Origin: Candidatus Kryptoniota bacterium
GTDB taxonomy: Bacteria > Bacteroidota > Ignavibacteria > Kryptoniales > JAKASW01
Reading direction: 5' to 3'
Length of the DNA stretch: 64,000 nucleotides
Assembly: GCA_036567965.1 (NCBI GenBank)
Contig: DATCTN010000030.1
Span: forward strand, 62,001-126,000
The notes below the pieces were generated by a model that saw nothing but the letters and a program-made list of their open reading frames with translations, did not search any database and was not told where the DNA came from. The position numbers and the translations under genes were made by a program. Below, piece by piece: positions 56,372-56,856 of the stretch (position 1 is its first letter; each line of letters begins with the position of its first letter).

Positions 56372-56400
56372 TTGTTAGATCGTGCGCAATTCATTAAATT
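56372..56400 (+). promoter_or_regulatory. Candidate promoter of the tRNA-Pro remnant
   Basis: TTGTTA (56372-56377) and TAAATT (56395-56400) are separated by 17 bases and end 18 bases before the tRNA-like sequence. The intact tRNA-Pro downstream has a promoter of the same -10 sequence, spacing and distance. Confidence 0.45.
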
Positions 56401-56409
56401 GATTTCGAA

Positions 56410-56478
56410 GTTGAACACCGGAACGTGGCGCAGCCTGGTAGCGTCCCGAAGGGAACCTGCGGTCACTACCTTGGGGTG
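56410..56478 (+). pseudogene. Truncated tRNA-Pro 5'-half remnant (direct repeat copy A)
   Basis: Positions 56410-56443 match 56774-56807 (34 bases, one mismatch), covering a short leader and the tRNA-Pro acceptor strand, D-stem and D-loop. A 20-base insertion (56444-56463, containing TCCCGAAGGGA) then breaks the D-stem. Positions 56464-56478 again match the intact gene exactly (15 bases, to 56822) through the anticodon arm start and loop. After this the sequence departs, so the 3' anticodon strand, T-arm and acceptor 3' strand are missing. It cannot fold as a tRNA. It precedes the GIY-YIG start codon by 13 bases. Confidence 0.85.
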
Positions 56479-56491
56479 AAAATCCAAACCA

Positions 56492-56761
56492 ATGAATTAC
56501 GTAGTCTACATACTGCAGAGCCTGAAAGATGGTCGATATTATATCGGTCATACAGCAGACATGGAGAAACGATTGAGAGCGCACAACTCGGGGAAGGTGA
56601 AATCGACCCAGAAGAGAAAGCCACTGAAGTTAGTGTACCGGGAAGAGTATGAAACGAAAGGGGAAGCATTCCGACGAGAGATGTATTTGAAAAGTGCAAA
56701 GGGGTATCGGGAGAAGAAGAAAATAGTGGATGAGATTGATAGCGGAGAAGGAATTGTGTAA
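56492..56761 (+). CDS. Small GIY-YIG nuclease-domain protein
   Basis: The 89-residue product is a single GIY-YIG domain: VYI at residues 5-7, YIG at 17-19, Arg27, His31-Asn32 and the metal-binding Glu63 in RREMYLKSAKG. All catalytic positions of the family are present. Such free-standing domains occur widely in Bacteroidota and relatives; their roles are mostly undefined, but GIY-YIG nucleases include homing endonucleases. It starts 13 bases after the tRNA-Pro remnant and its TAA stop lies inside the -10 box of the intact tRNA-Pro promoter. No ribosome binding site is evident, except GGGGTG from the remnant anticodon loop. The gene is Lys-rich and purine-rich compared with its neighbours, a possible sign of transfer. 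Confidence 0.85.
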   Translation: MNYVVYILQSLKDGRYYIGHTADMEKRLRAHNSGKVKSTQKRKPLKLVYREEYETKGEAFRREMYLKSAKGYREKKKIVDEIDSGEGIV

Positions 56762-56764
56762 ATT
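56736..56764 (+). promoter_or_regulatory. Candidate promoter of intact tRNA-Pro inside the GIY-YIG gene end
   Basis: TTGATA (56736-56741) and TAAATT (56759-56764) are 17 bases apart and end 18 bases before the tRNA. The last codons of the nuclease gene thus encode the -35, and its stop codon is part of the -10. Confidence 0.5.
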
Positions 56765-56782
56765 GGAGCTGCAGTTGAACAC

Positions 56783-56856
56783 CGGAACGTGGCGCAGCCC
56801 GGTAGCGCACTACCTTGGGGTGGTAGGGGTCGCGGGTTCGAATCCCGCCGTTCCGA
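56783..56856 (+). tRNA. tRNA-Pro (anticodon GGG), intact copy
   Basis: Acceptor CGGAACG/CGTTCCG, D-arm GCGC/GCGC, anticodon stem CTACC/GGTAG with loop TTGGGGT (anticodon GGG), and T-arm GCGGG/CCCGC with the TTCGAAT loop all pair. Discriminator A is followed by CAA, so the CCA end is not encoded, unlike tRNA-Arg nearby. A terminator follows directly. Confidence 0.95.

Follow-up and report, generated by a model that had tools for sequence, protein, structure and literature searches.

The closest described system is SegB of phages T4 and T6, a free-standing GIY-YIG homing endonuclease encoded near tRNA genes (PMC13096335, PMC2988022). SegB cuts within tRNA genes with a preference for RAWTSGAAC, and homologous recombination then leads to tandem amplification of tRNA-Tyr and segB; the neighbours of segB are tRNA genes of many isotypes, and the 5' end of the tRNA is homologous to the 3' end of the nuclease gene (PMC13096335). 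The modules reported here likewise consist of a GIY-YIG gene at tRNA genes of many isotypes, with tandem units of tRNA and nuclease and with an overlap of nuclease-end and tRNA sequence. The overlap was found in several tRNA-Gln modules in which the nuclease reading frame terminates within the spare tRNA; in one of these (L054), the last codons, GGC GTA GCC AAG TGG TAA (GVAKW and stop), are tRNA-Gln sequence. All described SegB homologues are phage-encoded, whereas the modules are chromosomal and their proteins, about 80-90 aa long, have a single domain; a second, broken copy of their tRNA, with hairpins inserted in it, is also usual. Judged by their anatomy, the modules would work like SegB.

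Four other systems share parts of this layout. Small GIY-YIG proteins of the UPF0213/YhbQ type (PDB 1zg2, 1ywl) have the fold and size of the module nuclease, but in this genus the YhbQ-like genes form a separate clade and lie away from tRNA genes. Genomic islands and other tRNA-targeting integrase elements also insert at a still-functional tRNA gene, part of which is repeated at their distal end; the modules differ in being about 370 bp long, in having a GIY-YIG gene only and no integrase, and in that the stranded part of the tRNA may be 5' or 3'. Group I introns with homing endonucleases share the anticodon-loop invasion site and the nuclease gene, but no group I intron was matched by Rfam in the window, and the intact tRNA-Pro was found to be continuous by ARAGORN. 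Double-hairpin and other repetitive hairpin elements are described from mitochondria (RHE, PMC2800124); the tandem hairpin inserts of the spare tRNA copies resemble them, except that the module inserts are bacterial and lie at specific points of tRNA loops. No description of such chromosomal modules was found in the literature searched, which had most subscription journals outside its coverage.

The tRNA-Pro(ggg) locus and its states in relatives

The window, a stretch of 64,000 nt from a Candidatus Kryptoniota genome, has a small GIY-YIG gene between a broken upstream and an intact downstream copy of tRNA-Pro(ggg) (Table 1). This arrangement had been described in the initial annotation, and its coordinates and repeat matches were reproduced exactly using ARAGORN, Rfam, and Pfam; the 20-nt insert between the two matching blocks had been missed. 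The tRNA part of the broken copy starts at 56419 and stops at tRNA position 40, in the anticodon arm. The insert consists of two small palindromes, TCCCGAAGGGA and ACCTGCGGT, and the spare tRNA-Pro copies of three other loci (L049, L118, L142) have inserts at the corresponding position. Between the two tRNA copies, the GIY-YIG gene is the only ORF, and there is no integrase gene.

Table 1. Coordinates of the features at the tRNA-Pro(ggg) locus, as positions in the window.
Feature	Positions	Strand	Evidence or remark
MerR-like regulator, flanking anchor gene outside the module	55873..56247	+	Pfam MerR_1
Broken upstream tRNA-Pro copy, block 1	56410..56443	+	9 nt leader and tRNA-Pro(ggg) positions 1-25; 34 bases, one mismatch against 56774-56807
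20-nt insert TCCCGAAGGGAACCTGCGGT in broken copy	56444..56463	+	Between tRNA positions 25 and 26; alignment with insert
Broken upstream tRNA-Pro copy, block 2	56464..56478	+	tRNA positions 26-40; 15 bases exact against 56808-56822
Small single-domain GIY-YIG nuclease gene, UPF0213-like, 89 aa	56492..56761	+	Pfam PF01541 E=5.9e-16
Duplicated leader of intact tRNA-Pro	56774..56782	+	Identical to 56410-56418
Intact tRNA-Pro(ggg)	56783..56857	+	ARAGORN; Rfam RF00005 64.2 bits at 56783-56856
Hairpin after intact tRNA-Pro, terminator-like	56873..56896	+	10-bp stem; T-rich DNA next
DUF2400/TIGR02757 protein, flanking anchor gene outside the module	56902..57768	+	Found in 12/12 same-genus relatives

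The nuclease was modelled by AlphaFold as one compact GIY-YIG domain (pLDDT 92.5), and its catalytic core (Y6, Y17, G19, R27, H31, E63) is invariant in 38 homologues. Similarity to the UPF0213 family was found in both sequence (profile match to 1zg2/1ywl, E=9.7e-17) and fold (Foldseek E=2.8e-5, 41% identity, with a TM-score of only 0.53 against the NMR model). The best PDB match was UPF0213 1zg2, followed by the structure-specific nuclease Slx1. A separate DNA-binding domain is absent from the 89-aa protein by Pfam and in the AlphaFold model.

The order MerR, tRNA-Pro, DUF2400 is conserved in 11 of 12 same-genus relatives, the MerR-like gene being in the same place in these 11, and the twelfth locus is cut by a contig end. 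Between these anchors, the DNA around tRNA-Pro varies from empty, through nuclease with duplicated tRNA, to decayed. Empty sites, which the initial annotation had named as support for insertion, are present at tRNA-Pro in genomes G001, G006, G008, and G010; loci L029, L030, L031, and L033 have a single intact tRNA-Pro with no nuclease and no tRNA fragment. Hairpins resembling the terminator-like one in Table 1 were also read after tRNA-Pro in L029, L031, and L033. In L025, the intact tRNA-Pro is followed by a full GIY-YIG gene (59% identical) and then by a tRNA-Pro copy interrupted by palindromes, an order of which the window genome's locus is the mirror image; the G004 tRNA-Pro locus has the form opposite to the window's. 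Decayed states range from an intact tRNA-Pro with a broken copy and a nuclease remnant (L026), through a nuclease remnant detected by tblastn (L032) and readable traces of one (L034, L035), to a broken tRNA-Pro copy with no nuclease (L027).

The same polymorphism was found at the tRNA-Gln/prs locus, where the module is present in 8 of 13 genomes, including G009, whose nuclease gene has a broken frame, and absent from the other 5; the window genome is empty there, with no trace of the module. Alleles with and without the nuclease thus coexist at both loci. Spare tRNA copies with no nuclease, taken in the initial annotation as evidence against insertion, do occur: L027 is one, and among the 46 tRNAs of the window genome, 12 have a nearby spare copy, 5 with a nuclease and 7 without. 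Since decaying nuclease remnants occur in sister genomes, these are read as losses of the nuclease and not as a refutation. It had also been proposed that the 5' half of the working tRNA-Pro came with the module. The D-loop of the window's broken copy has a T, as do 10 of 11 intact tRNA-Pro genes of relatives, and the window's working copy has a C, which is the expected pattern, at one base.

Between tRNA-Gln and prs in L265, L268, L271, L263, and L272, there is a structured, conserved-looking stretch, ..GGTAAGGT - hairpin - GACATCCGAATCCGCC..GCGGAGGATCCTTG.., with no Rfam match; it may regulate prs in cis as an RNA, or be left over from an old tRNA.

Recurrence and anatomy of the tRNA-nuclease-tRNA modules

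The window genome has 12-13 GIY-YIG genes. Across the genus, the GIY-YIG genes of the window's subfamily mostly adjoin tRNA genes on the same strand, and 39 of 42 tRNA-adjacent genes have another piece of their tRNA nearby (3 of 42 in the reverse-strand control). A wider set of 103 loci with 118 GIY-YIG genes was drawn partly from this class and partly from a named scan of GTDB that used the motif HNxGxVKSTK for selection. Similarity of the protein, and not nearness to a tRNA, decided which loci were included, and they span Bacteroidota, Ignavibacteriota, Calditrichota, Planctomycetota, Elusimicrobiota, Margulisbacteria, Zixibacteria, and many Patescibacteria. A tRNA gene lies within 300 bp on the same strand for 97/118 of these genes and on the opposite strand for 0/118, most of the genomes compared being metagenome assemblies in which some GIY-YIG genes with no tRNA sit at contig ends. 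Another piece of the neighbouring tRNA was detected for 76 of the 97 (control 0). In further genomes, 19/26 GIY-YIG genes are at a same-strand tRNA (opposite strand 0/26), with a second tRNA piece at 18/19 (control 0/19).

Using an insert-tolerant aligner on the genus and wider sets, a spare tRNA copy was found beyond the nuclease in 95/127 modules and in 0/127 on the reverse strand; for about a quarter of the tRNA-adjacent modules, no spare copy was detected. The layout was seen at more than ten tRNA isotypes (about a dozen) in many phyla. The recurrence of tRNA-flanked small GIY-YIG genes in other genomes, proposed in the initial annotation as a check, is thus found on a large scale, and that the tRNA-nuclease-tRNA module is real and widespread is near certain. 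Chance is ruled out for the tRNA-Pro duplication of the window because of this recurrence and because the first 34-base block alone gives a blastn E value of 4.7e-7 between the broken and intact copies.

Carriage by plasmids or phages was considered and is unsupported: 411 matches were obtained in bacterial and archaeal GTDB genomes against 1 in IMG/VR (2.9 million viral contigs), and phage matches to the nuclease are below 50% identity. In the sole IMG/VR match (L260), the nuclease gene was seen by eye to lie between two partial copies of the same tRNA, which is apparently a tRNA-Arg; this viral contig may be a mis-binned host contig.

The modules occur in two mirror forms, with the intact tRNA upstream (n=49) or downstream (n=46, the window's order) of the nuclease. 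In both, the spare copy loses the nuclease-proximal end and retains the distal end: downstream spare copies begin at about tRNA position 13 and keep the 3' end, and upstream spare copies begin at position 1 and stop about 8 nt past the anticodon start. The stranded 5' half had been regarded as an unusual reverse of the classical 3' restoration, a contrast that does not hold with the two forms about equally frequent. A single fixed insertion point at the anticodon loop, also part of the earlier model, gives way to full tRNA duplication with either copy decaying, which fits better because the two forms are balanced and because the G004 tRNA-Pro locus has the opposite form. The insertion model is therefore partly supported: it was right in outline, and there is no need to stress a "reversed" insertion that restores the 5' half.

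Tandem units of about 300-450 bp were found, some of them in single-contig genomes (G304, G356, G209, G259, G048). Three-copy arrays are present in G304, G356, G209, and G048, and 5.3 copies of a 450-bp unit at 98% identity were counted in G304. In the L305 array, the repeat starts inside the T-loop of the intact tRNA. The arrays have one intact tRNA by ARAGORN, with the repeated tRNA parts mostly broken; L080 is nearest to an exception. Upstream of a GIY-YIG gene in L093 (G004:C40:29000-34200), a tRNA-like gene is represented by at least three more 70-nt pieces, nearly identical and arranged in tandem. An array of several GIY-YIG genes with pieces derived from tRNA-Met and no intact tRNA was found on a 20-kb contig of the window genome (L013 11500-16200 and C20:19972-20223); it adjoins tandem-repeat secreted proteins and is probably an expanded, relocated tRNA-Met module.

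Hairpin inserts and evolution of the modules

An insert of at least 12 nt is present in 72/95 spare copies. Inserts are concentrated in loop regions (72% of 99, 48% expected, p=2e-6), with 28/99 outside loops. Of the anticodon-loop inserts, 12/24 are at 34|35, and 14/18 T-loop inserts are at TTC|RA; both sites are the 3|4 point of a 7-nt loop. Frequent insert lengths are 22, 30, 20, and 32 nt, and several inserts are two back-to-back hairpins, for instance TCCCGAAGGGA+CTCCTTTGGAG. Loop-centre hairpin inserts were observed in distant phyla (L054, L049, L118, L142, L175, L198, L203, and others) and in the window genome (L225, L226, L229, L230, L242). The motif RAWTSGAAC is present in 97/173 distinct tRNAs of the module loci. 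The T-loop insert site appears to fall within the complement of this SegB-preferred motif, the T-loop GTTCGAATC being read as that complement.

The TCC..GGA palindromes are not exclusive to the GIY-tRNA modules, an idea that was rejected when TCCCGAAGGGA was found 46 times in the window genome, many times within other hairpin repeats. Hairpins are also enriched beside GIY genes of the non-tRNA subfamily (1.57 against 0.05 per kb), and TCC..GGA hairpins are about 30 times denser beside low-scoring GIY genes than in the window. Non-tRNA, YhbQ-like GIY-YIG genes of the window genome and the genus (L015, L090, L095, L096, L094, L105, L106) lie amid dispersed inverted repeats, GTCATTCCCG..CGGGAATGAC and GTCATTGCGAGG.., in what looks like a partnership of nuclease and hairpin repeat.

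For the nuclease, most dN/dS values lie at 0.05-0.15, those of some Cys pairs reach 0.26, and synonymous sites are often near saturation; the protein is therefore maintained by purifying selection. The tRNA-derived parts of the spare copies have a median identity of 0.95. In the tRNA-Gln variants, the uninterrupted spare 3' parts match the intact tRNA of their own genome, although the synonymous sites of the GIY gene are near saturation, which indicates recombination between the copies or their repeated re-creation.

Nuclease clades in the genus correspond to tRNA species apart from a few switches, one being the Ser(cga) gene of the window genome, which is placed in the Arg(ccg) clade. Isotypes are also clustered on a large nuclease tree (42 changes vs 82 shuffled), but nearest relatives in other superphyla share an isotype in 12/117 cases, no more than chance (p=0.17). 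The idea that each GIY lineage is bound to one tRNA isotype, which largely holds within the genus, is thus unsupported across superphyla, and nuclease lineages seem to retarget over long times. Many modules in the genus look long-resident at one tRNA species; together with isotype sharing at chance level, this leaves recent target-specific transfer across phyla unsupported.

Weighing of explanations and proposed mechanism

Plain local duplication had been the main alternative to insertion: tRNA-Pro would have been duplicated once in tandem, with the GIY-YIG gene between the copies by accident. The window has a single such locus and tRNA duplications are common, which suits this account. It is refuted as a general explanation by the recurrence across many phyla and more than ten isotypes, for which the reverse-strand controls are zero or close to it, by the strand bias of 97 to 0, and by the position of the YhbQ-like subfamily away from tRNAs in the same genomes, and we consider it hardly credible. 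Little more can be said for a regulatory or toxin-antidote pair, in which the GIY protein would act on tRNA as RNA and the hairpin-bearing copy would be a decoy or antidote RNA. The co-orientation of the GIY gene with its neighbouring tRNA in all cases counted and the near-identity of the spare copies in their tRNA-derived parts are in line with it, but in about a quarter of the modules beside a tRNA no spare copy is detectable, and tRNA relics persist where the nuclease is gone, making this reading very improbable. To our knowledge, GIY-YIG enzymes are DNA nucleases in all known cases.

Two further readings, each unlikely, have more in their favour. The nuclease could serve the host by driving tandem tRNA amplification for dosage, for instance against tRNA-cutting toxins or defences, as SegB of phage T6 amplifies tRNA-Tyr; the tandem arrays of tRNA parts and GIY genes and the strong purifying selection point this way. 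Amplification fails to raise functional tRNA, however, because the tRNA parts of the arrays are mostly broken beside the one intact tRNA (L080 again nearest to an exception) and most spare copies carry inserts. Marginally less unlikely is that the hairpins constitute the mobile element, the GIY protein being a Slx1-like, structure-specific nuclease acting on hairpin- or tRNA-shaped DNA, with tRNA genes as one class of substrate. This would account for the insert peaks at the centres of 7-nt loops, the recurring lengths of 20, 22, 30, or 32 nt, the double hairpins, the hairpin enrichment near the non-tRNA subfamily, and the rank of Slx1 as best fold match after UPF0213. On the other hand, TCCCGAAGGGA hairpins also occur far from tRNA-linked GIY genes and may be independent repeats that tolerate spare tRNA copies, and 28/99 inserts lie outside loops. 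A broader form of the idea, in which small single-domain GIY-YIG proteins underlie phylum-spanning mobile elements as structure-specific nucleases on hairpin- or tRNA-shaped DNA, with tRNA genes captured as homology arms and hairpin inserts spread at loop centres, an analogue of REP/RAYT with a nuclease, is speculative and still doubtful, if somewhat less so.

The best explanation, and a probable one, is a tRNA-targeted, homing-like chromosomal module that moves by nuclease-driven homing into tRNA genes. The module consists of a minimal GIY-YIG gene and an extra copy of the tRNA it occupies, arranged tRNA - nuclease - tRNA with one copy functional. The nuclease would cut an unoccupied tRNA gene, and the break would be repaired by recombination with an occupied locus, the tRNA copies acting as homology arms; repair would introduce both the nuclease gene and the second copy of the tRNA, amounting to homing with no intron. 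With one tRNA copy sufficing, the spare would be free to lose its nuclease-side end and to gather hairpin inserts in its loops, which are suspected to remove cut sites too. Recombination between the copies could amplify the unit in tandem and keep the spare close to its partner, and occupied loci would decay to nuclease remnants, then to tRNA relics, and finally to empty sites. Several points run counter to the homing explanation: at an occupied locus, the nuclease should be able to cut the intact tRNA as well; the protein has no separate DNA-binding domain, in contrast to SegB or I-TevI; and, in data mostly from metagenome assemblies, many modules of the genus look long-resident and isotype sharing across superphyla is at chance level.

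If homing is correct, the modules form a large, apparently undescribed family of selfish elements in cellular genomes that parasitise tRNA genes, give the host back a working copy, and use one of the smallest nuclease domains. Many small GIY-YIG ORFs and stray tRNA fragments would thereby find an explanation. How a nuclease with no DNA-binding domain finds one tRNA species is a question that can now be tested. Module relatives are present in the cultured bacteria Pedobacter puniceum and Jiulongibacter sediminis, in which a direct test is possible.
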